From positions 248,001 to 312,000 of the forward strand of contig CANNEK010000004.1 in the NCBI GenBank assembly GCA_947503625.1: DNA of 64,000 nt, in the 5' to 3' direction. This stretch comes from an uncultured Kordiimonas sp. (GTDB lineage Bacteria; Pseudomonadota; Alphaproteobacteria; Sphingomonadales; Kordiimonadaceae). The first letter of the stretch is position 1. Every line of letters begins with the position of its first letter. A program made the position numbers and the translations under genes. Below, in pieces: positions 41,152 to 57,137 of the stretch. The notes below the pieces were generated by a model. The model ran no database searches and was not told the DNA's origin. It saw nothing but the letters and a program-made list of their open reading frames with translations.

Positions 41152-42888
41152 GTGAACGTGGCCAAGAGAAAACCCAAAGCGAAGCATACGCCCGTCATCA
41201 GAACCAAGAAAGAGAAGCTTGGCCTGGCAAACACAAATCTGTCGATCAAGGAAATCAGGAGATCACTGAAACTTGGTCAGGAGTTCGCCGAAAATAAAAA
41301 CTGGCCCGAAGCTGTGAAGTATCTGCTGATTGCGTGGGAAGCGATGCCAGATGACATCAATATCCTGACAGTGCTGGCCCATGCGCTGGCGCAGCTTGGT
41401 GTGCGCGAAAAAGCAATAGAAGTTCTTCAGGTTACACTGGAACGTCACGAGCCGACGCCGCAGATATGTTCGGTGATGCTTCAGATGGCGCTTGAGATGA
41501 ACTTCAACGATATTGCACTTAAACTGAGTAACTTGCTGCTTTCAATGGAACCGGATTTCTATCCTCATTATGTTAACCACATCACGGTGCTGTATAAGCT
41601 GGAGCGGTTCGATGAGGCGATTGAAGTGGCCCAGGCTTCTCTTCCAAGCTTTCCTGATTGCGCGGACCTTTGGAACGTGCTGGCGACAGCTGTACGCTTT
41701 CGGGATGGAAGAGAGGCATCTGTCGTGTTTTATGAGGAAGCTCTGCGTCTGGCTCCCAACGATTACAAAGTGCTTGGAAACCTTGCAGCGGTTACCCCTG
41801 ATGTTGAAAAGGCTGGCAGTTATTACAAACGCGCCTTGGAGGCCAATCCCGATAACCCGGAGCCGCATTTGGGGTATGCGTTTAACCTTATGCGCCGCGG
41901 CGTCCTTGACGAGGCCTGGAAGCACTACAACGAGCGTTTTCACCCAAGGCGGGCTCAGTCTCAGATCATACACTATACCCATAAGCTGCCTGAATGGGAC
42001 GGTAGTGACCTGAGCGGCAAGACACTGTTTGTTACTGCCGAGCAGGGCATTGGTGATGAGCTGATGTTCGGCAACTTTCTTCCATTTCTATATGAAAGGG
42101 CCGAGCAGCTTATCATTGGCTGCGACCCGAGACTGGTCTCCATTTACGAACGTCGTTTCCCGAACGCCATCGTCGATGTTTACACTGACAGGTTTCGGGA
42201 AGGGTACCGTTATCGCTTGTTCCTGAAAATTCAGCGTATGATTGAAGCAGGAGACCTGCATGTGGATTTTGCCGTTCCCGTTGCCAGTTCTTTCATGCAT
42301 GAGTGGCAAAAGCCCGAGGATATCAAGCCGCACCAGGATGGCTTTATTAATGCAGACCCAGATCGGGCCAATGACTTTGCAGACCGCATAAACAATGACG
42401 GCAAACCTGTGGTGGGGTTTGCCTGGTCTTCCGGCATTACCACAGGCATTCGGCAGGGCGTCTATCTGGAAATTGATCAGTTGGGGCCAATTATGCAGTT
42501 TGGCGACCGGGTCCACTTTGTGAATTTGATGTACTCTGATGTGAGAGAAGATCTGGCTAAAATCAAGGATATGTATGGTGTTGAGATACAGTCTTTTGAT
42601 GATGTGAATATGAAACAGGATATTGAAGCCAATCTCGCGATTATCGACAACTGCGACCTGGTGGTGTCTTCTTGTTCGGCGCCCGGTATTTTTAGCCTGT
42701 CGAAAGGCTGCCCAACTTTGCTGATGGCACGTGACCTGCCCTGGTGGTGTTTTGGTTCACGCGGTCCCTTGTTGTTTGCCAAAGATGCGGAGCTAATGAC
42801 GCATGAAAACGGCATGGAATGGTCGACTGTTTTGGAGCGGACCGTCGCAGCCATGAGTGAAAAACTGAAATTGACGGACAAGAACTGA
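41152..42888 (+). CDS. TPR glycosyltransferase, FlmG-like flagellin transferase
   Basis: About 578 aa from GTG 41152, which has GGAG 6 bases upstream; the frame stays open to 41083 and a second GTG at 41158 is possible. Residues about 30-270 (in 601-aa numbering) are TPR repeats, the rest a GT-B-like transferase domain (TLFVTAEQGIGDELMFGNFLP, then VVSSCSAPGIFSLSKGCPTLL). Caulobacter FlmG, a TPR protein, transfers pseudaminic acid to flagellin in the cytoplasm, and this gene sits between flagellins and sugar genes, so the same job is inferred. A sigma-54 promoter precedes it. The stop overlaps the next ATG by 1 bp. Confidence 0.75.
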   Translation: MNVAKRKPKAKHTPVIRTKKEKLGLANTNLSIKEIRRSLKLGQEFAENKNWPEAVKYLLIAWEAMPDDINILTVLAHALAQLGVREKAIEVLQVTLERHEPTPQICSVMLQMALEMNFNDIALKLSNLLLSMEPDFYPHYVNHITVLYKLERFDEAIEVAQASLPSFPDCADLWNVLATAVRFRDGREASVVFYEEALRLAPNDYKVLGNLAAVTPDVEKAGSYYKRALEANPDNPEPHLGYAFNLMRRGVLDEAWKHYNERFHPRRAQSQIIHYTHKLPEWDGSDLSGKTLFVTAEQGIGDELMFGNFLPFLYERAEQLIIGCDPRLVSIYERRFPNAIVDVYTDRFREGYRYRLFLKIQRMIEAGDLHVDFAVPVASSFMHEWQKPEDIKPHQDGFINADPDRANDFADRINNDGKPVVGFAWSSGITTGIRQGVYLEIDQLGPIMQFGDRVHFVNLMYSDVREDLAKIKDMYGVEIQSFDDVNMKQDIEANLAIIDNCDLVVSSCSAPGIFSLSKGCPTLLMARDLPWWCFGSRGPLLFAKDAELMTHENGMEWSTVLERTVAAMSEKLKLTDKN

Positions 42889-43766
42889 TGGACCAGACCA
42901 TGCCACTGTTTATTGCAGAAGCATCCAGCAATCATGCGAGAGACCTGGATCGTTGTCTACGGTTTGTCGATGTATCTGCAGATATCGGCTGCGGTGCGGT
43001 CAAGTTTCAGCTGTTCCGGATTGACGAGCTTTTCGCGCCTGAAGTTTTACAAACAAGTGGCGAACACCGACGCAGAAAAGACTGGGAGCTACCGCTGGAG
43101 TTTGTTCCCGAGATTGCGAAACGCTGCCGCGAGAGGAATATGCTGTTCAGCTGCACCCCGTTTTACCTTGATGCTGTTGAAGAACTCAGACCGTATGTCG
43201 ATTTCTACAAAATCGCATCTTACGAGTTATTGTGGCTTGATCTGGTGCGTTCGTGTGCCGCAACTGGTGTTTCCACTATCCTGTCTACGGGCATGGCAGA
43301 CTTGGCGGAGATTGACGAAGCCGTGCAGGCTTTTTCAACGGCGGGCGGGAAAGATTTAACCCTGCTGCATTGTGTATCGGGTTATCCTGCGCCGCCAGCC
43401 GAATGCAATTTGGCGGCTATCGAAACGATCAGGGCAGCGACAGGGCTTCCCGTGGGCTGGTCAGATCATTCGCGCACGCCTGGTGTGATACAGCGGGCAA
43501 TCCACCGTTTTAGCGCGCAGGTTGTCGAGTTTCATCTGGACCTGGACGAGCAAGGCGCTGAATATGAAACCGGGCATTGCTGGTTGCCCGCTGAAATCGA
43601 GCCAGTGATCCGTAGTGTTCGCGAAAGCCTGTTGGTGGATGGTGACGGTGAAAAAAAAGCGACAAAAGCCGAGATACATGACAGGGGCTGGCGCGCCGAT
43701 CCGGCGGATGGTTTGCGCCCCCTGATAAAGACACGCGAAGAATGGCGGCAAAGTCACGGCATTTGA
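42888..43766 (+). CDS. NeuB/SpsE-family nonulosonate synthase lacking SAF domain
   Basis: 292 aa TIM-barrel synthase of the NeuB/PseI/SpsE family: FIAEASSNHARDLDRCLRF at the start, VKFQLFRIDELF, KIASYELLWLDLV, ILSTGM, HCVSGYPAP and GWSDHSRTPGV. These enzymes condense phosphoenolpyruvate with a 6-carbon sugar to make nonulosonic acid. Usual members are about 340-350 aa because of a C-terminal antifreeze-like SAF domain; here the chain ends soon after the barrel. The canonical substrate-loop H-F-T-L-D is replaced by F-H-L-D-L-D. It may act on a changed substrate, or need the SAF domain from another protein. Confidence 0.8.
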   Translation: MDQTMPLFIAEASSNHARDLDRCLRFVDVSADIGCGAVKFQLFRIDELFAPEVLQTSGEHRRRKDWELPLEFVPEIAKRCRERNMLFSCTPFYLDAVEELRPYVDFYKIASYELLWLDLVRSCAATGVSTILSTGMADLAEIDEAVQAFSTAGGKDLTLLHCVSGYPAPPAECNLAAIETIRAATGLPVGWSDHSRTPGVIQRAIHRFSAQVVEFHLDLDEQGAEYETGHCWLPAEIEPVIRSVRESLLVDGDGEKKATKAEIHDRGWRADPADGLRPLIKTREEWRQSHGI

Positions 43767-43782
43767 CAAACCACCGGGTAAC

Positions 43783-45561
43783 TTAGCACTCCGCCTCGTC
43801 AATAATTCTGGCGATCCTTTCGACGCCTTTGCCATCAATCAACTGGCCTGCTTTTGCACCCATTTTCTTTATGATCGATCGCGACGTGAATGTTGCCTTC
43901 AATTTTTTAGCAATTGTATTTTCATCAAGCGATTGATGACTGCCGAGGCAAACACCACCACCTGCCGTTTCAAAGGCGGAAGCGGCGATGCTGTCGTCTT
44001 CGCTATGGGTCACGAAAAGGCTGGGTTTGCCCATTGTCGCCGCTTCAAAAACCGTCACACCGTATGCAGTTAGAAGCGCATCGGTGCCGGCAATTAAATG
44101 TCCAATATTCTCAACCGGGTCGATGATGCGAGCATCGGGCAGCGTGTTGGCGGCTAATTTTCGCAATTCTCGGGAGTGGGAAAAACCGGGCCCGATCAGG
44201 ATATCTATATCTATATTTGCATTGGTGTTCGCCAGGACCTGGACAAAGTGACCGGTTAAATTGAAAGGGTCGCTACCTCCCATAGTGACCAGCAGTCGCA
44301 GTTTTCCGCTTTGCTGTTGAGAGCGCGCGGTTAACGGACCGGTCACTTTTGTCGGGGGAACGATGATCCAGTCCCAGCCTATATGTGCGCTTGTGCCTTC
44401 AGGCCACGAGAGACTAAGTGCCTGAGGTGTGGGTGGGAGGAACGAAAGCTCACATGCCAGTCGCCTGTCGCTTCCGTCATCAATTGAGGCAAACACAACG
44501 GGATGTTTGCCTTTGATGGATTCTATTTCCTGCAAGGTGAGAAAATTTCGCACATCCAAAACGACAGCATGAATCTGGTTGGTTGTGATAGTATTTTCTA
44601 TTGTTTGAACTTCACGGCCTTTATCCAGGTTGAGGGCCAGGAAACCCATATTGCGGGCAGCTGTACAGCCGATTTCGCCCCGGCATGCTATTATGATGCC
44701 GTGAGAGAACTGGGTGCGGCACCTGTCTGCAAGGGCAAGGGTGCGACTGAGGTGCCCCATGCCGGCACCACCACCGGCCTCGGTGATGAAGAGGACAGTT
44801 TTTGTTTCTTCAACAGCGCTTTTTTGCCGGATATGGGCGTTTAGCTCGAGTAGCTCCGGAGTGGACTTGAGCAAGTGAACAAGCTTTTTCAGATTGATCT
44901 CACCAGCGTCCGCACCCAGTTCTTCGTGAATCCGCTGCATGAATGTCAGGTCATCGGGAGTGTCGACCGACGTTCGCGCTCCTTCAATCAAATGCTCGGG
45001 ATCAATTTCAAATTTCACGGTTTTACCGAGGCCAGGATGGCGACCGAGTACGCCGGTTACATGTTCCCGAGCAAACGGATCGTCACCATACAGCTCGGTC
45101 AGTTGTTCGAATAAATTGCCACTGACAACCTCGAACCCGCTGTGAATGGACGCCACTCCACCGTTGTCGATGCGGTCAGCGCCCTCGCGGTTCAGGCATG
45201 CAATCATCTGGTCAATTGTCTCGGGGTCAACCAGGGGAGCGTCGCCGGTGATGCGAACCAGATAGTCGGGCCCGGTTTTTTGATAGGCCATTTCGAAACG
45301 TTTCAGCACATTATTGAGAGGCCCGCGTACACAGGTGATATCTTCGCTTTGTGCAAAAACCTCCAAAGGGTTATCGCTATCTTGATCTGAAGTTGCGATA
45401 ATAATTTCAGATATATACTGGCTTTTTCTTAAGCGATGAATGAGATGAAATAAAAGTGGTTTACCGACCAAATCGACTAACACTTTGCCCGGAAACCGGG
45501 TCGAACTCATACGGGCTTGAATGACGGCAACTGTTTTCAAAAAAATACCTGTTTGGAACAC
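43783..45561 (-). CDS. SpsF-SpsG fusion: cytidylyltransferase plus PseG-like hydrolase
   Basis: 592 aa. Residues about 8-240 form an SpsF-type nucleotidyltransferase (VIQARMSSTRFPGKVL, then RITGDAPLVDPETID). Residues about 255-592 resemble SpsG/PseG: EAGGGAGMGHLSRTLALADRC, MGGSDPFN, and VFEAATMGKPSLFV. In Bacillus spsF and spsG are separate genes for spore-coat legionaminic acid. PseG removes UDP from the 2,4-diamino sugar and the cytidylyltransferase activates the final nonulosonate, so both ends of the pathway are joined here. Opposite strand to its neighbours. The GTG start is uncertain; TTG 45540 is an alternative with an AGG just upstream. Confidence 0.8.
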   Translation of the reverse strand: MFQTGIFLKTVAVIQARMSSTRFPGKVLVDLVGKPLLFHLIHRLRKSQYISEIIIATSDQDSDNPLEVFAQSEDITCVRGPLNNVLKRFEMAYQKTGPDYLVRITGDAPLVDPETIDQMIACLNREGADRIDNGGVASIHSGFEVVSGNLFEQLTELYGDDPFAREHVTGVLGRHPGLGKTVKFEIDPEHLIEGARTSVDTPDDLTFMQRIHEELGADAGEINLKKLVHLLKSTPELLELNAHIRQKSAVEETKTVLFITEAGGGAGMGHLSRTLALADRCRTQFSHGIIIACRGEIGCTAARNMGFLALNLDKGREVQTIENTITTNQIHAVVLDVRNFLTLQEIESIKGKHPVVFASIDDGSDRRLACELSFLPPTPQALSLSWPEGTSAHIGWDWIIVPPTKVTGPLTARSQQQSGKLRLLVTMGGSDPFNLTGHFVQVLANTNANIDIDILIGPGFSHSRELRKLAANTLPDARIIDPVENIGHLIAGTDALLTAYGVTVFEAATMGKPSLFVTHSEDDSIAASAFETAGGGVCLGSHQSLDENTIAKKLKATFTSRSIIKKMGAKAGQLIDGKGVERIARIIDEAEC

Positions 45562-45653
45562 TTCTTGCTATGGTTAACATGCTCGCACGGCATGATGTGC
45601 AGCGTAACTCGCGAGCAGGATATTGGAAGTAAATTTTTATCTGAAGGAACGGT
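45562..45653. other. Divergent promoter gap in glycosylation island
   Basis: 92 bp between the SpsF-SpsG gene (minus) and the first ATP-grasp gene (plus). No exact sigma-54 or ftr site was found. Confidence 0.45.
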
Positions 45654-46757
45654 GTGTCTGAGGGTGCTGATAAATGGATGATTGTTATGGGGTGTGGGAA
45701 ATCACAGGTCCCTTTCATTCGGGCTGCTTCCGGTGCGGGTTTCAGGGTATTGGGTGTTGATCGGGACTTGGAAGCGCCAGGCAGGGAAGAAACCGATAGA
45801 TTTTCTGCTGTCAGTACTTTTGATGCCGAGGCGGTTCTTGCGGCCATTGAAGGACTGAACATTGTCGGCATAATTGCCTATTCCGCTTTTGTTGAATGCC
45901 AGAAGGCTGCTGCCATTGTCCGGGAAAGATATCACCTTGTCGGTCCAAAACCGGATGCGTTGAAGTATTTGTTAAACAAGCCGGACTGGCAGCGAAAACT
46001 GGATGCAGCTGGCGTCAACACACCGAAGAACCTTCCTTTGAGTGATTGCTCTGTAATCGCCAAGCCTCTGCGTGACGGCTATGGCAGCGCGGGCATAAGG
46101 CGCTTTGAAAGCATGGATGCCGCGAAGGCGGAGCTCGGCGATGCGTTCTCGAATTTTCATCTGGAGCCATTTCTTGATGGCGAGCTTTTTAACGTCGGAG
46201 GCGTCATCATTGATGGTCAGCCACATATCCTGTCAGTATGCCGGAAGAAGACCCTGCCAAACCTTGTGACATCAGGGTTCTGTTCCCTGAATACCATGGA
46301 CCCCGCTTGCTCGGGGTTGAAGCATGCCGCGGTTCAGGCAATCACGGCCTTTGGTTTCACCGACACGCCGTTCAGTGTTGATGTTATTCGTTCAAAAGAC
46401 GGCGATGCTGTAATCGATGTCGGTTGTCTTCTGGATGCTCGTGTGGATCGATTGCTGGCAGCGGCAGAAGTGCCCGTATACGACTATATTGTTGCCGCAA
46501 CATTCGCGGAAAAGGCCGCACAAACCACAAGCCTTGATGCTGGCTGGGCACTGGATTTCGCTTTTGCCGACCGAGAGGGATGTGTGTCCCATCTTACCGC
46601 AAGCCGTGGTGAAGTTGAGCTGGAGCGTCCGCTCGGCAGCCATGTACACCAGCCAACATCAATAGCGGACTGTTTGGGATACTGCATTTTCAGGTATGAA
46701 AACGGCGAGGAAACGTCCGTCAGCTGGACCATACAGATAGAGGACGAGGCGGCGTGA
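45654..46757 (+). CDS. ATP-grasp ligase 1
   Basis: 367 aa ATP-grasp fold: an N-terminal Rossmann-like part (WMIVMGCGKSQVPFIRAA), a central ATP-binding region with VIAKPLRDGYGSAGIRRF near 141-158 and HLEPFLDGELFNVGG, and a metal-binding DAVIDVGCLLDAR near the C-terminus. Such enzymes activate a carboxylate as acyl-phosphate and join it to an amine or thiol. The acceptor here is unknown; an amino group on a flagellin sugar is a reasoned guess. GTG start preceded by GAAGGAA, stop overlapping the next GTG by 4 bp. Confidence 0.75.
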   Translation: MSEGADKWMIVMGCGKSQVPFIRAASGAGFRVLGVDRDLEAPGREETDRFSAVSTFDAEAVLAAIEGLNIVGIIAYSAFVECQKAAAIVRERYHLVGPKPDALKYLLNKPDWQRKLDAAGVNTPKNLPLSDCSVIAKPLRDGYGSAGIRRFESMDAAKAELGDAFSNFHLEPFLDGELFNVGGVIIDGQPHILSVCRKKTLPNLVTSGFCSLNTMDPACSGLKHAAVQAITAFGFTDTPFSVDVIRSKDGDAVIDVGCLLDARVDRLLAAAEVPVYDYIVAATFAEKAAQTTSLDAGWALDFAFADREGCVSHLTASRGEVELERPLGSHVHQPTSIADCLGYCIFRYENGEETSVSWTIQIEDEAA

Positions 46758-47983
46758 AGAAAAGTGTTTTGATGATTGGCGGTGGTATTCAGCAAGTTGA
46801 CTCCGCGCAGCTTGTCAAAGATGCCGGGTACCGCTTGATTGTGGCAGACCGGTCGCCAAACAGCCCGTGCTTTGATGTCGCTGACGAGACGCTTATTGTC
46901 GATGGTCAGGATATTGAAAGCATCACAGCCTATGTGATGCGAGAACGGAAGCGACAGAATATAACGGGGATTTTTTCTTTCGTTAACCTGACGACCACTG
47001 CGGCCTTTGTGGCACATGCCTGCGGTTTGCCGGGTATTCACCCGACAGCAGCGGTCGCAGCACAAAACAAAGCGCTGATGAAGCGTAATTTCTCTGAAAA
47101 CGGTGTCGCCACCCCGGCCTTTTATGAGGTGCGCTCAATCAGCGAAGCACAACAAGCCTTTGCTGCTTTGGGCGGGCACGCCATGGTCAAGGCAACAAAC
47201 CTGTTTGGCGGGCAGGGCATTCGGGAAGTTCATGATGAGCGTGAGCTTCAGAATGTGATGACAGAAATGCAGGGCTATTCAGGGTATCAGGGTGTTCTGA
47301 TTGAAGAGATTGTCCGCGGTCGGTTTGTTGACCTGAACGGTATTTTTGCAGATGGAAAGTTCCACCGGGCTGGTCATATTGTGAGCGAATTTCTAACGGA
47401 ATACCCGGAAGGCAATCCGATAAGCCCTATAGAGCATATCATTCGCTGCCCCGGGGACGTGTCGACATCTGACCTTGACGCTCTTTATGATTTGTTCGAG
47501 CGGGCACATCGCGGTCTTGGAACAGACTTTGGCCCTGTAGGAGCGGACGCGATTTTGACGGAAAGAGGCCCAATGCTTATTGAGATTGGTCCCCGGCTGC
47601 ATTCAGCAACCTGTTCTTGTTATATGGTGCCCAGCGTGATGGGAGTGAATGCTATTGCTGCGGGAGTGCGTGTTATGGCGGGTGATGATATCAGGCATTC
47701 AGAATTGGAGATGAGCCAGCACGGCGCTGCAATGACAAGGCTTGTGCTTTGGCCCCCAGGCAACCTCTCAGCTGTTGATGGTGTTGATGAGGCCCGCGCG
47801 CTTGACGGTGTGCTGAAACTGTATCTTCACAAAGGTGCGGGCAGCACCATTCCCGAATACAGTAATTCCACCCAGATACCGCTTGCAGTTATCGCGCATG
47901 GCGCAACCCCTGAAGCGGCTGAAGCCGTTATTGAACAAGCGACCATGCTCGTGCGGCCGAGTTATTCAGAGGCGCAAACATGA
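46754..47983 (+). CDS. ATP-grasp ligase 2
   Basis: 409 aa. N-terminal SVLMIGGGIQQVDSAQLVKDAGY, ATP-grasp core with HAMVKATNLFGGQGIREV near 142-160 and LIEEIVRGRFVDLNGIF, ending in the metal site LIEIGPRLHSATCS. The C-terminal ~100 residues (VLKLYLHKGAGSTIPEYSN) look like the lid seen in carbamoyl-phosphate-synthase-type ligases. Distinct in sequence from ligase 1 and ligase 3. Starts at GTG inside the previous gene and overlaps the methyltransferase ATG by 4 bp, so all three are translated together. Confidence 0.75.
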   Translation: MKKSVLMIGGGIQQVDSAQLVKDAGYRLIVADRSPNSPCFDVADETLIVDGQDIESITAYVMRERKRQNITGIFSFVNLTTTAAFVAHACGLPGIHPTAAVAAQNKALMKRNFSENGVATPAFYEVRSISEAQQAFAALGGHAMVKATNLFGGQGIREVHDERELQNVMTEMQGYSGYQGVLIEEIVRGRFVDLNGIFADGKFHRAGHIVSEFLTEYPEGNPISPIEHIIRCPGDVSTSDLDALYDLFERAHRGLGTDFGPVGADAILTERGPMLIEIGPRLHSATCSCYMVPSVMGVNAIAAGVRVMAGDDIRHSELEMSQHGAAMTRLVLWPPGNLSAVDGVDEARALDGVLKLYLHKGAGSTIPEYSNSTQIPLAVIAHGATPEAAEAVIEQATMLVRPSYSEAQT

Positions 47984-48918
47984 GCGAAAGCCGGAACCAT
48001 AGAGAATGGACGGACCCAACTGGCGTTACCCATGCCGGCGACTTCGTGCTGAACAAAGATAACATCGACCTGATCAATTGCTCTCATTGCGGATTCAAGC
48101 ACATCGTGCCACTTCCTGATCCGGAGACGCTTCGCAAGTTTTACGAGGCAGAATTCTACCAGAGTAATCGCCCGCACTATATTGAAGCCTCGAAAGAGGA
48201 TGTGGAATGGCGTCAATCAGAGTTTGCGGACCGTCTGATGATTGCTGAGGACCTGACGGAAAAAGCGTCGGGCAGGGTGCTTGATATCGGCTGCGGACCT
48301 GGTGATTTTCTTTTGGCTGCACAGTCCCGTGGCTGGGAAGTTTTGGGTGTTGAGCCATCACCTATGGCCGCGGAATACGCGGCAAACAGGGGCGTGGAAG
48401 TAGAGAATGATTTTTTCTCGGCTGACCTTGCGTGCAAGTTGGGTACCTTCGATATGGTGCACATGAGCGAGGTATTGGAACATATTCCTAATCCGCTTGA
48501 GTTACTTGGCCTTGTTCACCACCTGCTGAAGCCGGGTGGTGTTTTATGCGTATCCGTACCTAACGATTTTAACCCGCTCCAGGTATCTTATCAGGAAATC
48601 TCGAAGAAGGATGCCTGGTGGGTGGTGCCGGATCATCATCTTAATTACTTCGATTTCGAAACGCTGGAGCAGGCAATGCAAAGTGCTGATCTGAAGCCGG
48701 TCCACAGAACGACGAATTTCCCAATGGAGATGTTTTTGCTGATGGGTGATGACTATATTGGCAATCGCGACATCGGCCGTCCACTTCACAATAAGCGCAA
48801 AGCGTTTGATTTAAATTTGACGGGTGAATACTTGAAAGTGCGATCCACTTTTTACAACAGTTTAGCCAACAGCGGGCTGGGGCGGCTGGCCGTTGTATTT
48901 GCGCAAAAACAGGATTAG
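47980..48918 (+). CDS. SAM-dependent methyltransferase
   Basis: 312 aa. Class I methyltransferase domain with VLDIGCGPGDFLLAA near 94-108, EVLGVEPSPM and HMSEVLEHIPNP, preceded by a small CSHCGFKHIVPLP motif that fits a partial zinc-binding head. C-terminal part contains DHHLNYFDFETLE. In this operon it likely methylates a sugar or its acyl substituent. ATG overlaps the ATP-grasp stop (ATGA). Confidence 0.8.
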   Translation: MSESRNHREWTDPTGVTHAGDFVLNKDNIDLINCSHCGFKHIVPLPDPETLRKFYEAEFYQSNRPHYIEASKEDVEWRQSEFADRLMIAEDLTEKASGRVLDIGCGPGDFLLAAQSRGWEVLGVEPSPMAAEYAANRGVEVENDFFSADLACKLGTFDMVHMSEVLEHIPNPLELLGLVHHLLKPGGVLCVSVPNDFNPLQVSYQEISKKDAWWVVPDHHLNYFDFETLEQAMQSADLKPVHRTTNFPMEMFLLMGDDYIGNRDIGRPLHNKRKAFDLNLTGEYLKVRSTFYNSLANSGLGRLAVVFAQKQD

Positions 48919-49011: not shown

Positions 49012-49824
49012 ATGACCGAAAACCTGGAACAAATTGCCGGTTCGATCAGAAAGGTAGCGCTGGAAGCCGTTTATAATGGCCGGTCAGGCCACCCGGGCGG
49101 AAGCCTCTCGATAGCTGATATGCTGGCTGTTCTCTATTTTGATGAAATGAACGTGAAACCCGATGATCCGGACTGGAAGCAGCGGGACCGCTTTGTCCTT
49201 TCGAAAGGACATGCGTGCCCGGCTCTTTATGCCGCTTTAGCACTGAAGGGCTACATGCCGGTTGAAGAAGCTAAAACCCTCCGTAAAATCGACAGCCGCA
49301 TGGAAGGGCATCCGGATGCAGCAATTCCGGGCGTTGATGCCCCTTCAGGTTCATTGGGGATGGGCTTGAGCCAAGGTCTGGGAATGGCGATGGGGGCGCG
49401 TATTCAAGGGTTGGACTTCCGCACTTATGTCATTCTTGGTGATGGTGACATGCAGGAAGGCAACACATGGGAAGCCATTATGGCTGCCGGTCATCACAAA
49501 ATGGACAGCCTTGTTGCGCTCTATGATAGCAACAAGTTGCAAGGAGACGCGCCGGTCGAGACCCAGATGAATATGGGAAATGTAGTCGACAAGGTCTCGA
49601 CGTTTGGTTGGCACACGATTTCAATTGACGGTCATGACGTTGACGCACTCAAGGCTGCGCTTGCGGAAGCCCGGGCGACAAAAGGCAGACCAACATTTAT
49701 TCAGGCGGATACGGTCAAGGGCAAAGGCGTGTCCTTCATGGAAGATGTATTATACTGGCATGGCAGCGTAACGATGTCAGACGCAGAAATTGGCGATGCG
49801 CTGAAGGAGCTTGAGCATGTTTGA
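49012..49824 (+). CDS. Split transketolase, N-terminal (TPP) subunit
   Basis: 270 aa, matching the TPP-binding half of transketolase: SGHPGGSLSIADML near 27-40, SKGHACPALYAAL, the GSLG loop and the thiamine motif ILGDGDMQEGNTWEA near 141-155. Full-length housekeeping transketolases are about 650 aa, so this is the short split form. Split pairs occur in archaea and in special sugar pathways. It should transfer a 2-carbon unit together with the next gene product. Sigma-54 element upstream. Confidence 0.85.
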   Translation: MTENLEQIAGSIRKVALEAVYNGRSGHPGGSLSIADMLAVLYFDEMNVKPDDPDWKQRDRFVLSKGHACPALYAALALKGYMPVEEAKTLRKIDSRMEGHPDAAIPGVDAPSGSLGMGLSQGLGMAMGARIQGLDFRTYVILGDGDMQEGNTWEAIMAAGHHKMDSLVALYDSNKLQGDAPVETQMNMGNVVDKVSTFGWHTISIDGHDVDALKAALAEARATKGRPTFIQADTVKGKGVSFMEDVLYWHGSVTMSDAEIGDALKELEHV

Positions 49825-50782
49825 TGGTCAAACAATAGAATTCTGGTCCGAGGGCGAGCAGGTCTCGGTACGTGACGCTTTTGGGCGTATTCTCGTGGCA
49901 CAAGCAGCGGTCCGCAAGGACTGGATGCTTCTGGATGCTGATGTTGCAGGTGGTACCGGAGCAAAGCCCTTGGTGCAGGCTCACCCTGATCGGGTCGTGC
50001 AATTCGGTATTGCAGAACAAAATATGATGGCTGCCGCCGGTGGTATGGCAGATACGGGCATTATTCCTGTGGTTTCAACCTTTGCCGCTTTTGGTTGCAT
50101 GCGCGCGCACGAGCAGTTCAGAACCGCGATCGCATATCCGGGGCGTAACGTGAAGCTTTGCTGTTCACATCACGGGATTGATGTGGGGCCGGACGGTGCC
50201 ACGGCGCAAATGTTTGAAGATCTGGCGACAATGAGGGCTATTCCCGGTGTCACCGTGATCAGCCCGGCTGACGCCAACGAGTTCATGTTGGCGTTCAAAG
50301 CCATACTGGACCATGATGGCCCGGTTTATATGCGTATAGGCCGTAGTGCCACCCCGGTGGTTTATTCCGGTAATCATGATTTCAGGATTGGCAAGGCACA
50401 CCGTCTTCGCGAAGGAAAAGACGTATCGATCATTGCAACCGGTGTGATGGTGGCGCGCGCTCTGGAGGCAGCTGATACACTTGCAAAAGAAGGTATTTCT
50501 GCGCGCGTAGTGAACATGGCAACAATCAAGCCGATTGATGCTGCGGAGGTTATTGCCTGCGCAACAGAAACTGGCGGTATCGTGACTGCAGAAGACCATA
50601 ATGTTTATGGTGGTCTCGGGAGTGCCGTCGCTGAGTGTACTGCTCAAAACGTACCTGCGAAAATGAAGTTTGTTAGCATTCAGGATCGGTTTGGTAAAAG
50701 CGGTGAGCATGACGAACTGCCAGCTTTATTCGGCATTGCTGCAGATGATGTAGCGGCTGCATGCCGCTACCTTGTTGGCTGA
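49817..50782 (+). CDS. Split transketolase, C-terminal (Pyr) subunit
   Basis: About 321 aa from ATG 49817 (AAGGAG 7 bases upstream; a TTG at 49811 is possible). Pyrimidine-binding and C-terminal transketolase domains: VQFGIAEQNMMAAAGG near 59-75 supplies the conserved Glu that activates thiamine, then AFGCMRAHEQFR and MRIGRSATPVV. It overlaps the N-subunit gene by 8 bp. Its substrate in this operon is unknown; a branched or chain-extended sugar is a possibility. Confidence 0.85.
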   Translation: MFDGQTIEFWSEGEQVSVRDAFGRILVAQAAVRKDWMLLDADVAGGTGAKPLVQAHPDRVVQFGIAEQNMMAAAGGMADTGIIPVVSTFAAFGCMRAHEQFRTAIAYPGRNVKLCCSHHGIDVGPDGATAQMFEDLATMRAIPGVTVISPADANEFMLAFKAILDHDGPVYMRIGRSATPVVYSGNHDFRIGKAHRLREGKDVSIIATGVMVARALEAADTLAKEGISARVVNMATIKPIDAAEVIACATETGGIVTAEDHNVYGGLGSAVAECTAQNVPAKMKFVSIQDRFGKSGEHDELPALFGIAADDVAAACRYLVG

Positions 50783-50793
50783 AGAGTGCGATT

Positions 50794-51525
50794 ATGAGTG
50801 ATAAAACCGTATTGGTAACGGGTGCCAGCCGTGGCATAGGTTCAGCGATTGCGAAGCGCTTCATCAATGATGGTTGCCGTGTTGCTGTAGGGTTTCACAA
50901 TAATCAGTCGCTTGCTGATGATGTGTGCGAAGGCCATTCAAATGCTGTTCCTGTGCAAATAGATGTAGGCGATCGGGCTTCTGTCAAAAGAGCATTGGCA
51001 CGCATTCACGAGAAGTTGGGCTCTGTCGATATTTTGGTAAACAACGCCGGTATTGCTCAGGAAAAACCTTTTTTTACCATCACAGATGAAGACTGGGACG
51101 GCATGTTGTGCACCAACCTGCAGTCAAATTTCATTCTGTCGCAGGAAACCCTGCCGCACATGATCGATGAAGGCTGGGGCCGGATCATCAACATATCGTC
51201 AATTGGCGGGCAGTGGGGTGGCCTCAATCAGGTCCATTATGCTGCTGCCAAAGCAGGCCAGATCAACTTCACACGCTCCCTTGCCAAACTGTTTTCTGGC
51301 GATGGAGTGACCAGCAATGCAATCGCCATAGGCCTCGCTGCAACCGATATGTCAGCGGCAGAGCTTGATCGGGACGACGGCAAACAAAAGGTTGCAGGTA
51401 TTCCTTCAGGCAGGCTGGCAAGTGTTGAAGAAATTGCAGATACTGCGGCGTACCTGGCTTCGGACGGTGCGGGATACGTTACCGGCCAGACCATCAATAT
51501 GAATGGTGGTATGTATTTTGTCTGA
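50794..51525 (+). CDS. SDR-family oxidoreductase (FabG-like)
   Basis: 243 aa from ATG 50794 (GAAGAG upstream); a longer frame to 50761 lies inside the transketolase gene. Classical short-chain dehydrogenase: TGASRGIGSAIA near 8-19, NNAGIAQ, catalytic Ser in ISSIGGQWGG and YAAAKAG. GMYFV is the C-terminus. It probably reduces a keto group made by the split transketolase. It ends inside the third ATP-grasp gene. Confidence 0.85.
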   Translation: MSDKTVLVTGASRGIGSAIAKRFINDGCRVAVGFHNNQSLADDVCEGHSNAVPVQIDVGDRASVKRALARIHEKLGSVDILVNNAGIAQEKPFFTITDEDWDGMLCTNLQSNFILSQETLPHMIDEGWGRIINISSIGGQWGGLNQVHYAAAKAGQINFTRSLAKLFSGDGVTSNAIAIGLAATDMSAAELDRDDGKQKVAGIPSGRLASVEEIADTAAYLASDGAGYVTGQTINMNGGMYFV

Positions 51526-52738
51526 GCGGTTACTGGTCTTGGGCGGCAGCCGGCAGGCAGTTGGCGGTCTTGAGGAACTGCGCCGGGACGGATACGAGCT
51601 TGTTGTTTGTGACATAGACCCGGAGGCTCCGGGGTTTGGGCTCGCCGACCACGCCATCATCGGGAGTGTTTATCATATTGAAGACTGCCTGCCTGCAGTA
51701 GAACGTTTTCATTCCAAAAAGCCAATTGATGGTGTTATGTGCCTTGCCTGTGATGTGCCGCATGTTGTAGCGCGCATTGCTGACAAGCTTGGCCTGCCCG
51801 GACTGCTAATTGAAGTCGCTGACCGGGCAGTTGACAAAATTGCGATGAAAGAAAAATTCGCTCGGGACAAGGTACCTGTACCATTTTTCAGGCAGGTGGA
51901 ATCTGTTGATGAGATACGGGAACTCCTGCAGGCACGGGATACTGAATTTGTCGTTAAACCCGTTGATAGCAGAGGCTCAAAAGGTGTTTCCAGGTTGGCT
52001 GCGTCAGGCGATGCCGACTGGGCATTTTCCTATGCAAAAGAAAACTCGCCCACCGAACGCGTGATGGTAGAGGCTTATCTGTCCGGCCCTCAAATCAGCA
52101 GTGAGACAGTTGTCATTGAGGGCGAAGCGATCACGCCTGCGCTATCAGATCGCAGCTATGAGTATCTGGAAAAATATTATCCTTTTATTGTTGAAAATGG
52201 CGGTGACATGCCTTCGGCGCTTCCTGCCGAGATTCTCGAAAAAATACGCTCACTGATAGAAAATGCAGCCAAAAGTCTCGGAGTTAAGAACGGTGTAGTC
52301 AAAGGCGATATCGTTGTATCGGACGGTGAACCATACGTAATTGAGCTTGCCGCTCGGCTGTCTGGCGGATATTTCTGCACACACCAGATTCCGTTATCAA
52401 CCGGTGTAAAGCTTGTTTCAGCGTGTGCACAGATTGCGCTCGGGAAGCAATTGAAGGCCCGTGACTGGTATCCATGTTTTGAGAAGCCGGTATCCACTCG
52501 CTGGAAACTGGTGGAACCGGGGAGAGTGGTGTTTGTTCCGGATGAAAATGACATACTGACATCATCTGGCGTGCGTTATTTTGAACATTGGTTAACGGTC
52601 GGCGATCAGATTGATGATGCGCAAAACGCCGCGGCATCGGTGGCTATGGTTCAGGCGACAGGCGATACCCGGCAGCAATCAATAGAGAACGCCGAAAATG
52701 CGCTCAACAGGTTTAGCCCGGAAATTCGGCCTGTATAG
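51518..52738 (+). CDS. ATP-grasp ligase 3
   Basis: About 406 aa. Rossmann-like start (ERLLVLGGSRQAVGGLEEL), ATP-grasp core with FVVKPVDSRGSKGVSRLA near 145-162 and VMVEAYLSGPQISSE, and metal site YVIELAARLSGGYF. Resembles carbamoyl-phosphate-synthase/PurK-type ligases. Start could be TTG 51518, GTG 51506 or ATG 51503; all overlap the SDR stop, so it is translationally coupled. It is the third ATP-grasp of the island and the three are not close copies. Confidence 0.75.
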   Translation: MSERLLVLGGSRQAVGGLEELRRDGYELVVCDIDPEAPGFGLADHAIIGSVYHIEDCLPAVERFHSKKPIDGVMCLACDVPHVVARIADKLGLPGLLIEVADRAVDKIAMKEKFARDKVPVPFFRQVESVDEIRELLQARDTEFVVKPVDSRGSKGVSRLAASGDADWAFSYAKENSPTERVMVEAYLSGPQISSETVVIEGEAITPALSDRSYEYLEKYYPFIVENGGDMPSALPAEILEKIRSLIENAAKSLGVKNGVVKGDIVVSDGEPYVIELAARLSGGYFCTHQIPLSTGVKLVSACAQIALGKQLKARDWYPCFEKPVSTRWKLVEPGRVVFVPDENDILTSSGVRYFEHWLTVGDQIDDAQNAAASVAMVQATGDTRQQSIENAENALNRFSPEIRPV

Positions 52739-52806: not shown

Positions 52807-54819
52807 ATGTCCAAGGCACTGATCTATACAGCGTTTCACCTTAATCTGGCTTTTTCTTCCATTGAAGAAGACCAGAGAAAAACTGTTGTTGAAAAATGCT
52901 ATTGGCCGTTGTTGCGCCTGGCTCAAGAGGGGTTTCCAGTTGGAATTGAAGCGACCAGCTACACCCTGCAAGAAATCAAACGCTGTGACCCCGAGTGGAT
53001 ATCTGTGTTTCGCCGTCTCCTCGCAGAAGGAAACGCCGAGCTGATTGGCAGCGGCTATACACAGATGATCGCTCCGCTTGTGCCCTTCGGCGTAACCGAA
53101 GCCAATCTCAGGCTCGGACTGCAGGACTATGAGGACATCACAGGTGTCAGGCCTCGTATTGCCATGGTGAATGAACAGGCCTACTCACCTGGCCTCGTAC
53201 CACTTTATCTGGATGCAGGTTTCGACGCGATCATAATGGACTGGTCGGAACCATCCAGTCACAACAGGTCGTGGTCCAAAAAATACGCAGGTCGGCCGCA
53301 ACTTGTGTTGGGCTCTGAGGGCCTTGAGATCCCTGTTGTTTGGTCTGATGCGCTTTCGTTTCAAAAGTTCCAGCGATATGCCCATGCCGAGATTGAAGCA
53401 GATGAGTATTTCGAATTTCTGGGATTTCAGCTTGAGAACGAACCTGTGGCTTTTCCGCTTTATACCAGTGATGCCGAGGTGTTCGATTACCGGCCTGGCA
53501 GATTTGCCGGCGAAGCTGTGAAAACCGGGGCGGTTAAGGAATATGAACGGATTGCTCTTTTACTTAGGGCGCTAAAGGGTAGTGACGCAGTTGAGCTTGG
53601 CACACCAAGTGACGCTCTGGCGCGGTTGGACCGTAGTGGCTCGGCGATCAGGCTTGAAACAGCTCAGGCGCCAGTTCCAGTGAAGAAGCAGAGAAAATAC
53701 AATGTGTTGCGCTGGGGCGCGACCGGTCGAAACGATCTGGCAGTCAACACGGCATGTCATCGAATACTCGAAGGCTTTGAAAAGCACGGCCCGCCGACCG
53801 AAGTACAATGGAGACGCGTATGCGAATTGTGGGCGAGTGATTTTCGGACTCATATTACAGAAAACCGCTGGCAGGCATTTTTGAATGCTGAAGAATGGAC
53901 TGCTGCGCACTATCAAGGGCCGCTGACCGAAGATACACAGCGGGCTGATGGCAGGGATTCCGGTATTTCTGTTTCCCGGCAAGGGCGTTTTCTGGTTCTG
54001 GAGACCAGTGGCCAGCACATCGTACTGAATTGTCGTCGCGGATTGAGTATTCAGTCGTTCGGGCCTGGAGGATATGATCCCGGGCGCGGTGCGGCGCCAG
54101 CCTCTAACGGGCTTGTCGGAACTCTGGCCCATGGTTTTTTTGAAGACATAGCGTTTGGTGCTGATTTCTATAGCGGCCACTTTGTTTTCGAGCCCTCGGA
54201 ACGGCATAAAATTACTGATTTGCTTCAGGTTGAACCCGAGGTTTTCTGGCGGCCAGACCAAGGTGCCCTGGACGTAGTTGCTAAAATGGAAATTGATGGG
54301 CATCCCGTCACCAAAACTGTGCGATTTTTTAAGGACCAAAAGAAGATAACCATCTGGTATAATGGAGAACTGTTGACAAACGGAGCAGGCACATTCCGAT
54401 GTGCATATCTCACCTTAAATCCATACGCATTCGATGCTCGATCACTTTACTTTAAAGGCCGGAATGGTGGCAGGTCACATGAAACGCATCAGCTTTGGGA
54501 CGCCGGAATTATTGAAGTCGATCATGGTGCTGCCGTATCCAGGTTGGTATCCGCAACGACTGGTCTTGGCCTGACTGACGGTATTCTGGAATTGGGAGAC
54601 AGCAGAAGTTTTCTGCGCCTCAAAATGGATCGTACCGATGCCGCCGGACTTGGCCTTGTGAAATCAACCCCTGTTGGGGAAAGCTATTTTGTGCGCGCTG
54701 CTATCACACTTCGTGAATCGGACGAAACAAGCAGAACACAAACAGCGAATACTCACGCCGAGCTCCCGGCTCCCGCGATCCGCTACTCCATTGAGTTTGG
54801 GACACACGATGGCAGCTGA
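52807..54819 (+). CDS. GH57-like polysaccharide-active protein
   Basis: 670 aa. The N-terminal ~300 residues follow the glycoside hydrolase family 57 barrel: FHLNLAFSSIEEDQR near residue 11 in place of the usual HxP motif, FPVGIEATSYTL, then VNEQAYSPGLVPLYLDAGFD near 119-138, whose Glu is the candidate nucleophile, and IIMDWSEP. The C-terminal part is beta-rich (jelly-roll like). Family members are amylases, branching enzymes or mannosidases. Role in the island is unclear; trimming a glycan or acting as a transferase are possibilities. No signal peptide. Confidence 0.65.
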   Translation: MSKALIYTAFHLNLAFSSIEEDQRKTVVEKCYWPLLRLAQEGFPVGIEATSYTLQEIKRCDPEWISVFRRLLAEGNAELIGSGYTQMIAPLVPFGVTEANLRLGLQDYEDITGVRPRIAMVNEQAYSPGLVPLYLDAGFDAIIMDWSEPSSHNRSWSKKYAGRPQLVLGSEGLEIPVVWSDALSFQKFQRYAHAEIEADEYFEFLGFQLENEPVAFPLYTSDAEVFDYRPGRFAGEAVKTGAVKEYERIALLLRALKGSDAVELGTPSDALARLDRSGSAIRLETAQAPVPVKKQRKYNVLRWGATGRNDLAVNTACHRILEGFEKHGPPTEVQWRRVCELWASDFRTHITENRWQAFLNAEEWTAAHYQGPLTEDTQRADGRDSGISVSRQGRFLVLETSGQHIVLNCRRGLSIQSFGPGGYDPGRGAAPASNGLVGTLAHGFFEDIAFGADFYSGHFVFEPSERHKITDLLQVEPEVFWRPDQGALDVVAKMEIDGHPVTKTVRFFKDQKKITIWYNGELLTNGAGTFRCAYLTLNPYAFDARSLYFKGRNGGRSHETHQLWDAGIIEVDHGAAVSRLVSATTGLGLTDGILELGDSRSFLRLKMDRTDAAGLGLVKSTPVGESYFVRAAITLRESDETSRTQTANTHAELPAPAIRYSIEFGTHDGS

Positions 54820-54900
54820 AGGCAAAAGAAAGTCTTTGTCCTCAATGTGTTGAGTGCTAGGTTGTGTCTGATAGTTGTGTGAGGGCAAGGAGCATACGGA

Positions 54901-55938
54901 ATGGCACTGGGCAGCTTTGACGGGTCTTCAGTGGACCTTGAAGGAAAATCCATTCTCATAACTGGTGGCACCGGTTCGTTTGGCAAACAGATGCTACAGC
55001 AATTGCTGAAGCACCATAACCCCAAGCGGGTCAGTATCTTTGCCCGTGGTGAATACAATCATTTTCTGGTTCAAGGTTCCCTTTCCGACGAGGAGCGGAA
55101 AAAGGTGCGTTTCTTTATTGGGGATGTGCGAGACCAGGACCGGACAGTTATGGCGATGCGCGGCATCGATATCGTCATTCATGCTGCGGCGCAAAAACAG
55201 GTGCCGCTGGCGGAATATAATCCGTTCGAATGTATACGCACAAATGTGATCGGCGCTGAAAATGTTGTGCAGGCTGCAATTCGCGCTGGCGTGAAGAAGG
55301 TTATTGCGCTTTCAACAGACAAGGCGGTTAATCCGATCAATCTTTATGGTGCCAGCAAGCTGGCGTCGGACAAGATATTTGTGGCTGCAAACGCACTTGC
55401 TGCTGGAACCGGCACACGGTTTTCGGTTGTAAGGTATGGCAATGTTTTGGGGTCACGGGGCAGTGTTATTCCGTTTTTCCGGAAACTTCTGAAGGACGGC
55501 GCTACGGAACTGCCGGTGACAGATGAACGGATGACAAGGTTCTGGATCACGCTCGAACAGGCCGTTGCTTTTACAATCACTTGCATTGACACCATGCGTG
55601 GTGGTGAAATTTTCGTACCGAAGATCCCCTCCATGCGCATCACAGACCTCGTCACAGCACTTGCGCCGGACATCAAAACAAAGATCGTCGGCATTCGCCC
55701 CGGTGAGAAATTGCACGAGTTGATGATCACAGAACATAATGCCCCGACAACTCTGGATGTGGGTGATCGCTATATCATTGAGCCAGAATGGAATTTTTGG
55801 TCGCGCCCGGCGCATCTTGAAGACGGCCATCCGCTGGTGAGTGAAAATTTCGAATATACCAGCGATAAGAATGACCAGTGGATGACGGTTGAAGATTTAC
55901 GCACAACTCTGAAGTCAATACCCGAGGATGGGGAGTAG
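54901..55938 (+). CDS. pseB: PseB-like UDP-GlcNAc 4,6-dehydratase (inverting)
   Basis: 345 aa NDP-sugar SDR. ILITGGTGSFGKQML near 18-32 (NAD site), AAAQKQVPLAEYNP, catalytic STDKAVNPINLYGASKLASDK with Y-x3-K, and a late GIRPGEKLHE match PseB/FlaA1. It makes the 4-keto-6-deoxy-AltNAc nucleotide that starts pseudaminic acid synthesis. AAGGAG lies before the ATG. PseC follows 5 bp later. In Caulobacter the counterpart is FlmA. Confidence 0.9.
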   Translation: MALGSFDGSSVDLEGKSILITGGTGSFGKQMLQQLLKHHNPKRVSIFARGEYNHFLVQGSLSDEERKKVRFFIGDVRDQDRTVMAMRGIDIVIHAAAQKQVPLAEYNPFECIRTNVIGAENVVQAAIRAGVKKVIALSTDKAVNPINLYGASKLASDKIFVAANALAAGTGTRFSVVRYGNVLGSRGSVIPFFRKLLKDGATELPVTDERMTRFWITLEQAVAFTITCIDTMRGGEIFVPKIPSMRITDLVTALAPDIKTKIVGIRPGEKLHELMITEHNAPTTLDVGDRYIIEPEWNFWSRPAHLEDGHPLVSENFEYTSDKNDQWMTVEDLRTTLKSIPEDGE

Positions 55939-55943
55939 TTTGC

Positions 55944-57137
55944 TTGGCTGATGATTTCCTGCCTTACGGTCGGCATTCAATTGATCAGGCCGATATAGAT
56001 GCGGTTGTTGAGGTCCTGCAAAATGGACCTTTAACCTGCGGTCCGAAAGTCGATGCATTCGAGAGAGCCTTTGCCGAAAAGATAGGTGCCAAAGAAGCTG
56101 TCGTTTGCGCCAATGGCACAGCGGCGCTGCACCTTGCGTTAATGGCCGCGGGATTGGGTGAGGGGGACGTTGCGGTTGTTCCCTCCATCACTTTTCTGGC
56201 AACGGCCAACGCCGTCCGGATGACAGGCGCAGAGGTATGCTTTGCCGACGTTGATCCGGAAACAGGTCTAATGACTGCCAGGCATTTGAAGGACGCGGTC
56301 ACACGGTCCAGCATCAAGCCCAAGGCTGTTTTACCCGTACATATGAATGGCCAGTCAGAGAACATGCAGGAAATTAAAGCGCTGGCTGAAGCCATGGATA
56401 TGGTTGTGGTCGCAGACTGTTGCCATGCGCTTGGTGCCAATTACATGAGTGAGGGCAAACCTGGTGATGGCCAGTGTGAAGATTTCGGGACCTTTTCGTT
56501 GCACCCGGTAAAATCAATTGCCATGGGTGAAGGCGGTGTCGTTACCACAAACAGGTCCGACAAGGCCCGTTTGATGCGGCAGCTGCGTGGACATGCAATG
56601 GAAAAAAGCCCGGGAAACTGGGCAAACCCGGAAGCAGGTACAGCAGAAGACGGTGAGGTTAACCCCTGGTATTATGAAATGCCGTTTCTTGCGTATAATT
56701 ACCGGGCAACCGATATCCAGTGTGCGCTAGGCTTGAGCCAGCTGAAAAAACTTGATGATTTCATCTTGAACAGGCGAAGAGTTGCAGATCTTTATGACAA
56801 GCATTTGGAGCGCCTTTCCAACAGGGTTCATGCCGTTCGGCGGTCGAGCGACTGTCAGTCTGCCTGGCATCTGTATCCTGTGCTGATCGAATTCAGTACT
56901 ACAAAAAAAGACAGAGCCGCATTAATGCGCGCGTTAATGGATGAGGGTATTGGAACGCAGGTGCATTATGTGCCTGTTTCGGCTCAACCCTACTATGTTG
57001 AGCGTTATGGGCGGCAGGAACTGCCGGGCGTGAACAAATACTATGAACAGGTTCTGAGCTTGCCAATTTTTCCAGCTATGGAGGAGGCTGACGTTGAGCG
57101 CGTTGTTGATACCTTGGCGCGTGCTCTAGCTGACTAG
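55944..57137 (+). CDS. pseC: PseC-like UDP-4-keto-sugar aminotransferase (DegT/DnrJ/EryC1)
   Basis: 397 aa. TTG start with GGGGAG 7 bases upstream, directly behind pseB. DegT/DnrJ motifs: CANGTAALHLAL near 49-60, the catalytic Lys in FSLHPVKSIAMGEGG near 183-197, and YNYRATDIQCALG. It aminates C4 of the PseB product using glutamate. The 4-amino sugar so made normally goes to PseH for acetylation, and no pseH-like gene is in the island. Counterpart of Caulobacter FlmB. Confidence 0.88.
   Translation: MADDFLPYGRHSIDQADIDAVVEVLQNGPLTCGPKVDAFERAFAEKIGAKEAVVCANGTAALHLALMAAGLGEGDVAVVPSITFLATANAVRMTGAEVCFADVDPETGLMTARHLKDAVTRSSIKPKAVLPVHMNGQSENMQEIKALAEAMDMVVVADCCHALGANYMSEGKPGDGQCEDFGTFSLHPVKSIAMGEGGVVTTNRSDKARLMRQLRGHAMEKSPGNWANPEAGTAEDGEVNPWYYEMPFLAYNYRATDIQCALGLSQLKKLDDFILNRRRVADLYDKHLERLSNRVHAVRRSSDCQSAWHLYPVLIEFSTTKKDRAALMRALMDEGIGTQVHYVPVSAQPYYVERYGRQELPGVNKYYEQVLSLPIFPAMEEADVERVVDTLARALAD

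Follow-up and report, generated by a model that had tools for sequence, protein, structure and literature searches.

The stretch of DNA analysed here, referred to as the window, is a 64,000-nucleotide piece of the genome of an uncultured Kordiimonas sp. (GenBank assembly GCA_947503625.1, 4.07 Mb), corresponding to positions 248001–312000 of contig CANNEK010000004.1 (G000:C4:248001-312000). It contains an island of putative sugar genes with flagellin genes on either side, three before and one after, all on the minus strand. A sequence-only reading of this DNA had placed a flagellin-glycan pathway between these flagellin genes. All 13 of the genes it named are open reading frames exactly where it had placed them, and the families it assigned agree with profile searches (Pfam, TIGR/NCBIfam). 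Three details of the identities needed amendment: the SpsF-SpsG fusion lies on the minus strand, the NeuB-like protein is without a SAF domain, and the first ATP-grasp protein can be recognised only marginally.

The island is described here in its gene order, on the plus strand unless stated. The first gene encodes a FlmG-like tetratricopeptide repeat (TPR) flagellin glycosyltransferase (41152..42888). Its frame opens at 41083, and the start at 41152 is plausible because several homologues align only from about residue 19–21. TPR motifs were found, the flagellin neighbours fit, and the frame has 601 residues against 596 in Caulobacter FlmG; the C-terminal half gives no Pfam match at E 0.001. 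The protein is the presumed transferase, an identification resting on layout and size. Next are the short NeuB (42888..43766; 292 residues; PF03102, 185 bits), a candidate nonulosonic acid synthase of the SfmA type, and the minus-strand SpsF-SpsG fusion (43783..45561), which joins a predicted cytidylyltransferase (PF02348, CTP_transf_3, 117 bits) to a PseG-like UDP-sugar hydrolase (TIGR03590, 101.9 bits, cut-off 153.55). A divergent ATP-grasp protein 1 follows (45654..46757; PRK02186, E 2.3e-6), then ATP-grasp ligase 2 with a LAL_C2 domain (46754..47983; PF18603, 54.4 bits; second match of the ligase-3 profile, 188.5 bits) and an S-adenosylmethionine (SAM) methyltransferase (47980..48918; PF13489, 114 bits). 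The two chains of a split transketolase come next, the N-terminal one (Transketolase_N; 49012..49824) closest among solved structures to the split transketolase 6yak (273 bits) and the C-terminal one (Transket_pyr/Transketolase_C; 49811..50782), with an AGGTG signature, to 6yaj (262.5 bits). They are followed by an SfmC-type short-chain dehydrogenase/reductase (SDR; 50761..51525; PF13561, 189.7 bits), the SfmE-type ATP-grasp ligase 3 (51503..52738; PF18603, PF02655; PDB 4dim, 71.3 bits; 3vot, an L-amino acid ligase, 52.5 bits), a glycoside hydrolase family 57 (GH57)-like enzyme (52807..54819; PF03065, 65.6 bits), PseB (54901..55938; TIGR03589, 493.7 bits, cut-off 407.75) and PseC (55944..57137; TIGR03588, 449.3 bits, cut-off 423.5). 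The short NeuB, flagellins and FlmG-like protein of the window resemble their counterparts in Kordiimonas species. The SpsF-SpsG fusion (43783-45561) is 32–37% (once 42%) identical to that of most other alphaproteobacterial loci and only 25–30% to that of Kordiimonas-like loci; this pattern, together with its strand, suggests that the fusion was replaced in the window lineage.

A NeuB match at E 1e-30 is present in 48 of the 289 genomes of the class, and nine of the 48, the window genome included, carry the short form. The other eight short NeuBs are 59–62% identical to that of the window, and the next-best NeuB matches reach at most 39%. A scan of named genomes returned 236 relatives (tblastn, E 1e-3); the best 80 of the 236, which were analysed, share 56–67% identity with the short NeuB and are labelled as Alpha- and Gammaproteobacteria, Desulfuromonadales, Syntrophomonas, Nitrospirae, Chlorobiaceae and others, most of them being metagenome bins whose taxon labels may be wrong. 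On these identities the putative synthase is a subfamily of its own. Its alignment with solved NeuB, PseI and SpsE structures covers their TIM barrel, and it keeps Glu, Lys and His where it is aligned with the genome's own PseI. No SAF profile match was found in the window NeuB, and a short conserved tail, WRADPxDGLRP, stands where PseI has its SAF domain. In 22 of the 37 short-NeuB genomes the short protein is the sole NeuB-family match above 100 bits (weak matches of 19–50 bits being ignored), a count that may overlook a second NeuB in part of the genomes, as some are bins and completeness is mostly not stated. Because of this count, the short NeuB is most likely itself the nonulosonic acid synthase.

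PseB and PseC are canonical, both exceeding their curated cut-offs. The late enzymes fall below those of their Pse counterparts, with the SpsG half reaching 101.9 of 153.55 bits as PseG, NeuB 149.7 of 340.25 bits as PseI, and SpsF 25.6 of 205.7 bits as PseF. Judged by these scores the predicted pathway is canonical up to PseC and divergent beyond it. The sequence-only reading had found PseH missing from the island and suggested a genome-wide search for pseH. That search found no PseH above the TIGR03585 cut-off in the whole genome (best match 36.6 of 93.1 bits, a GNAT open reading frame adjoining putative gatA and gatB frames), the cut-off being a weak test that none of 47 genomes passes, 20 controls included. 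The controls are same-class genomes having only ordinary NeuB. The cut-off was dropped as a yes-or-no test for that reason and proximity was used instead. None of 27 short-NeuB genomes, against nine of the 20 controls, has a weak PseH match (E 1e-5) within 15 kb of pseB or neuB (Fisher p 1.2e-4), a difference that separates groups and not single genomes, as 11 of the 20 controls are also without such a neighbour. When only PseB-bearing genomes are taken, the figures are 0/26 and 9/17. No recognisable PseH is present in the genome, and of the two tests proximity is the better one. PseB itself (E 1e-60) is found in 26 of the 27 short-NeuB genomes and 17 of the 20 controls. The PseB match of Shewanella electrodiphila (G301:C2:464980-465783) contains a TAA in frame and begins only at profile position 59; C1 of that genome holds another PseB-like match, of lower score.

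Two families are constant partners of the short NeuB. All 37 short-NeuB genomes contain both a GH57-like match (profile A3, E 1e-10) and an ATP-grasp-3 match (profile A4, E 1e-50), and none of the 20 controls, a set of different taxonomy, has either; 16 (A3) and 11 (A4) of the 37 genomes supplied profile rows and match by construction. Among genomes independent of the profiles the counts are 21/21 for the GH57-like family and 26/26 for ATP-grasp 3, and within the class alone both partners occur in 9/9 short-NeuB genomes against 0/20 controls. The GH57 match is on the contig of the short NeuB in 37/37 genomes and the ATP-grasp-3 match in 36/37. In G116 the latter is in two pieces on other contigs, and in G314 it lies about 50 kb from the short NeuB. 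Neighbourhoods were counted in the 47 of the 80 named loci with at least 20 kb. There, a thiamine diphosphate (ThDP) enzyme is found in 43, SpsF-SpsG in 42, a methyltransferase in 42, SDR in 39, ATP-grasp in 37, GH57 in 33, FlmG or Maf in 33, PseB or PseC in 29, and flagellin, FlaF or FlbT in 17.

The GH57-like protein, which the sequence-only reading had listed in passing, is a constant partner. Its E123 and D222 align with E123 and D214 of the Thermococcus litoralis 4-alpha-glucanotransferase 1k1w (a weak match, E 0.004), which we take to be the nucleophile and the acid/base, respectively. Both residues are invariant in 23 sequences. The predicted structure has a mean confidence (pLDDT) of 86.6, and a fold search with it returned GH57 and GH38 enzymes, with modest query-normalised TM scores of 0.32–0.62 among the matches listed. 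The protein is probably an active glycoside-processing enzyme, as far as alignment and model indicate.

The three ATP-grasp genes do not behave as one conserved unit. The third is conserved; ATP-grasp 1 is the best match in just 3 of the 80 loci and ATP-grasp 2 in 7, and by these counts both are outside the conserved core. As ligases, two of the three are clear and the first is only probable, its PF02655 score being 23.0 bits against a cut-off of 23.2. No PDB entry matches ATP-grasp 1 at better than E 0.23, and a single-sequence structure prediction gave no usable model (pLDDT 36.6). ATP-grasp enzymes usually carry an E-x-N-x-R metal site. At that position, ATP-grasp 1 (45654-46757) reads VIDVGCLLDAR and ATP-grasp 2 (46754-47983) reads IEIGPRLHS.

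The carboligase is the exchangeable part of the set. We compared 88 loci, 80 of them from named genomes, with at least two genomes present twice. A transketolase pair occurs in 37, an acetolactate-synthase-like enzyme in 11, both in one, another enzyme in nine, and neither in 30, a last group that includes many short contigs and four loci with a lone N-chain match. Eight of the nine other enzymes resemble 1-deoxyxylulose-5-phosphate synthase (DXS) by Pfam, and the ninth, in L075, is a divergent split transketolase. Both of the two DXS-like proteins tested pass the NCBIfam dxs cut-off. These proteins lie in flagellar sugar clusters (L064:7741-9543 and L098:12891-14672) and exceed a curated cut-off meant for housekeeping DXS; DXS-like proteins of such clusters are probably miscalled by automatic annotation. 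A ThDP enzyme is found within 1.5 kb in 40 of the 42 SDR genes having at least 2.5 kb on each side, the other two being those of L089 and L092, the latter with one slightly beyond that distance. All three ThDP families make alpha-hydroxy ketones. The simple reading from this chemistry is that the adjoining SDR would reduce the alpha-hydroxy ketone made by the carboligase. The transketolase chains retain the cofactor motifs. AGGTG is present in all 38 C chains compared (at least 38% identity), and aligned ordinary enzymes have a Ser-Thr pair there, of which the serine presumably binds the donor phosphate. Because AGGTG replaces this serine, the donor may differ from the usual sugar phosphate.

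The closest known relative is the sfmABCDE set of Shewanella oneidensis, described in 2013. All five genes are needed for flagellin modification, and the genome has PseB and PseC homologues and no clear PseH, PseG, PseI or PseF, according to the accessible part of the report (PMC3765264). By gel mobility, flagellin is unmodified in the sfmA, sfmB, sfmC and sfmD mutants, and the effect of losing sfmE is slightly smaller (PMC3765264). The glycan is a 274-Da mono-N-acetyl nonulosonic acid carrying a nitrogen-free, O-methylated side group with the formula C9H16O7, C10H18O7 or C11H20O7 (PMC3765264). The authors proposed SfmD as the methyltransferase and, in the part available to us, gave no full pathway (PMC3765264). 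We made the comparison through Shewanella marisflavi (L095) and the published sizes. In L095 the short NeuB, IlvB-like enzyme, SDR, methyltransferase and ATP-grasp protein have 290, 579, 273 or 252, 407 to 394, and 412 residues, and sfmABCDE encode 290, 581, 255, 395 and 412 (PMC3765264). The systems share the SAF-less NeuB of about 290 residues, a ThDP enzyme, an SDR, a methyltransferase and an ATP-grasp protein. They differ in that SfmB is ilvB-like (acetolactate-synthase-like) and the window has a split transketolase; in that the presumed transferase is Maf in Shewanella and FlmG-like in the window; and in that the window has two additional ATP-grasp genes. The ATP-grasp gene of L095 is followed by GH57-like and SpsF-SpsG genes, families recognised here as part of the set and not mentioned in the 2013 account as far as it was accessible (PMC3765264). 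The system is not unique to this island, where the variant differs from its relative in carboligase, transferase and extra ligases. The guess of an unusual sugar in the sequence-only reading comes close to the Shewanella glycan (PMC3765264). The locus is a real PseH-less flagellin nonulosonic acid island, a variant of the Sfm-type system.

Our reading, to which we give a probability of a little under one half (about 0.48), is that the island serves to make a variant nonulosonic acid of the pseudaminic type and to attach it to flagellin, with the PseC-derived amine acylated by an ATP-grasp ligase instead of acetylated by PseH. PseB and PseC would make UDP-4-amino-4,6-dideoxy-AltNAc as usual. 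The ThDP carboligase, here the split transketolase, would add two carbons to an acid-bearing aldehyde, after which the SDR would reduce the resulting ketone and the methyltransferase would O-methylate the product. With PseH absent, ATP-grasp ligase 3 would form an amide between this acid and the 4-amino group. The divergent SpsG half would then remove UDP, the NeuB that lost its SAF lid would add phosphoenolpyruvate (PEP), the SpsF half would make the CMP sugar, and the FlmG-like protein would transfer the sugar to flagellin. In such a scheme these later enzymes would be special because the substrate has become bulky. The GH57-like enzyme would perform a further constant step, perhaps processing the side group as a retaining transglycosylase or hydrolase. 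The gene content supports the replacement of PseH. The sequences show this gene content, the subfamily status of the NeuB, the co-occurrences, the lack of PseH and the flagellin-type promoter sites; we infer the structure of the acid, its amide linkage, the sequence of the reactions and what GH57 does. An acid shaped by transketolase, SDR and methyltransferase and joined by an ATP-grasp ligase had been proposed before; ATP-grasp, carboligase and SDR do travel with the short NeuB in distant bacteria, and the amide chemistry remains conjectural. By arithmetic, the formula of the Shewanella side group is that of an O-methylated deoxy-octonic acyl group; the acid would arise from a hexuronic acid by acetyl transfer, reduction and methylation. 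The formula is equally that of a methylated octose residue. The formula was rejected as proof of a linear acid, since the aldose is an isomer and amide and glycoside are undecided by it.

Several points weigh against this reading. The outer-group formula, on our own arithmetic, would fit a glycosidically bound methylated octose equally well. If SfmB to SfmD only made an acid attached by SfmE, the mutants of B to D and of E should look alike; the loss of sfmE is slightly milder than that of sfmB, sfmC or sfmD, with cells still motile, and the sfmC mutant retained its filament (PMC3765264). The outer group of S. oneidensis is easily lost in the mass spectrometer source (PMC3765264), which would not be typical of an amide. 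A second strong NeuB-family protein is present in 15 of the 37 short-NeuB genomes, the window genome among them. Plain pseudaminic acid may also be made in the window genome, given a full PseI and a PseG-like gene on contig C2.

The strongest of the alternatives, though an unlikely one, is that the carboligase, SDR and methyltransferases build a long-chain sugar, for instance a methylated octose, which is attached glycosidically by the GH57-like protein acting as a retaining transglycosylase, with the ATP-grasp protein doing something smaller. The constancy of the GH57-like protein in 37/37 genomes, its two retained catalytic positions and its GH57/GH38-like fold agree with this, as do the labile outer group and the formula of an O-methyl octose. 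It does not account for the ATP-grasp ligase, which is just as constant, or for the amine that is left without an acetyl group in the 274-Da core, and none of the families recognised in the neighbourhoods is an obvious maker of an activated octose.

Alternatively, and with still poorer odds, ordinary pseudaminic acid could be made through an unrecognised acetyltransferase and the C2 genes, the island genes being optional decorations. The C2 partial set (L017:8890-12618; G000:C2, about 130.9–134.6 kb) comprises a PseI of 452 bits (cut-off 340), a PseG-like gene, a HAD gene and an ATP-grasp gene. For one half of the sequence-only reading's refuting case, plain pseudaminic acid with a pseH elsewhere, the outcome is that the genome has no recognisable pseH but does have an ordinary PseI and a PseG-like gene outside the island. 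Caulobacter tolerates the loss of its PseH candidates, in the accessible part of that study (PMC7591256). Against this stand the only PseB match of the genome, which lies inside the island, the lack of any PseF above the cut-off in the genome, and the 22/37 genomes without another strong NeuB match, in which the core can work without PseI. No PseB, PseC, PseH or PseF was recognised in the C2 set, which may share the island's PseB, PseC and SpsF. In the remaining alternative, the product of the short NeuB would be the side-chain acid, formed from PEP and a small aldehyde, instead of the nonulosonic acid. This idea has in its favour the missing SAF domain and, on our own chemistry, the expectation that reduction and methylation would turn a NeuB-type product into a 2-methoxy-3-deoxy acid, yet it is very improbable and was dropped, as the protein is the sole NeuB-family match above 100 bits in those 22 genomes, five Shewanella isolates included, and loss of sfmA in S. 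oneidensis gives flagellin of unmodified mobility (PMC3765264).

Acylation through the ATP-grasp ligase in place of PseH can be set beside other flagellar glycans. A 450-Da flagellar glycan of Treponema denticola is reportedly a nonulosonic acid with a 2-methoxy-4,5,6-trihydroxyhexanoyl group. Such a group is the kind of chain expected from ketol transfer, reduction and O-methylation. Campylobacter jejuni has an ordinary PseH. Its flagellin Pse5(2,3-di-O-methylglyceroyl)7Ac is a precedent for a methylated hydroxy acid as an N-acyl group on pseudaminic acid, with the difference that the acyl is on C5 and depends on Cj1295, which the authors suggest removes an acetyl group (PMC3068675). Caulobacter shares with the window PseB, PseC and a FlmG-type TPR transferase in an alphaproteobacterium; it differs in its full-length NeuB, whose SAF arginine R322 is needed for function, and in its use of FlmH, FlmD and FlmC, with no carboligase, ATP-grasp or GH57 mentioned in the accessible text (PMC7591256). 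The type B flagellin locus of Clostridioides difficile has an ATP-grasp protein of the carboxylate-amine ligase family, CDR20291_0245; its glycans are sulfonated peptidylamido-glycans, and a nonulosonic acid pathway is not mentioned in the accessible part (PMC5207246). No description of the present gene set was found among the titles and abstract openings listed by searches of open-licence papers, or in passages of PMC12342839, PMC5207246, PMC6321876 and PMC13317340.

The stronger result lies in the gene content, namely that GH57-like and ATP-grasp proteins are constant partners and that the carboligase is exchangeable. Tentatively, these features may mark a widespread, hitherto unrecognised second route to flagellar nonulosonic acids, in which PseH is replaced by a modular acid line, consisting of any of three ThDP carboligases, an SDR and exchangeable methyltransferases, together with an ATP-grasp amide ligase; this route would use a lid-less NeuB that accepts the bulky product and a constant GH57 step that is not known to have a parallel in sialic-acid metabolism, and the sugar would be tuned by swapping carboligases and methyltransferases. 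If true, a modular acyl-chain assembly line would be added to bacterial sialic-acid chemistry, and several odd flagellar glycans may be variations of one scheme. For the S. oneidensis sugar, left unsolved in 2013, the conserved set proposes SpsF-SpsG, the GH57-like protein and the ATP-grasp protein as the missing players, and it gives a testable order of steps.

The flanking genes, all on the minus strand, are three flagellin genes before the island (36554..37381, with a PF00669 match at C4:284971-285369 and a frame with Met start; 37650..38477 and 38790..39617, each an open frame with a flagellin profile match), flaF (40050..40472; PF07309, 111 bits), flbT (40495..40890; PF07378, 149.5 bits) and one flagellin gene after it (57282..58112, an open frame with a flagellin profile match). 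An exact -24/-12 site of the sequence TGGCAC-N5-TTGC, which we take to be the sigma-54 consensus, lies upstream of flmG and neuB (41037..41051, plus strand). Sites with at most one mismatch lie upstream of ATP-grasp 1 (45554..45568, plus strand, one mismatch), the transketolase pair (48927..48941, plus strand, one mismatch) and each of the four flagellin genes. Taken by themselves, the counts are modest: two exact sites in the window against 0.39 expected (at least two in 7/100 shuffles), and 13 sites with at most one mismatch against 7.4 expected (at least 13 in 3/100 shuffles). Seven of the 13 are upstream of flmG, ATP-grasp 1, the transketolases and the four flagellins on the correct strand, where about 0.1 would be expected, the spots having been picked post hoc. 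Of 12 related loci, four (L057, L059, L066 and L093) likewise have an exact site a short distance upstream of an flmG-type gene, that of L059 being slightly inside the stop-to-stop frame and ahead of its aligned part. The island is probably co-regulated with flagellin, as these sites suggest. A sigma-70 promoter scan showed no excess (15 against 14.6 in shuffles) and a terminator scan a mild one (25 against 17.4); neither was used. Related islands contain extra genes, for instance for a sulfotransferase (L104:8146-8988), an FkbM-type methyltransferase (L053:9731-10861) and a pyruvyl transferase (L058:12652-13956), a pattern that would fit a side group differing between strains.

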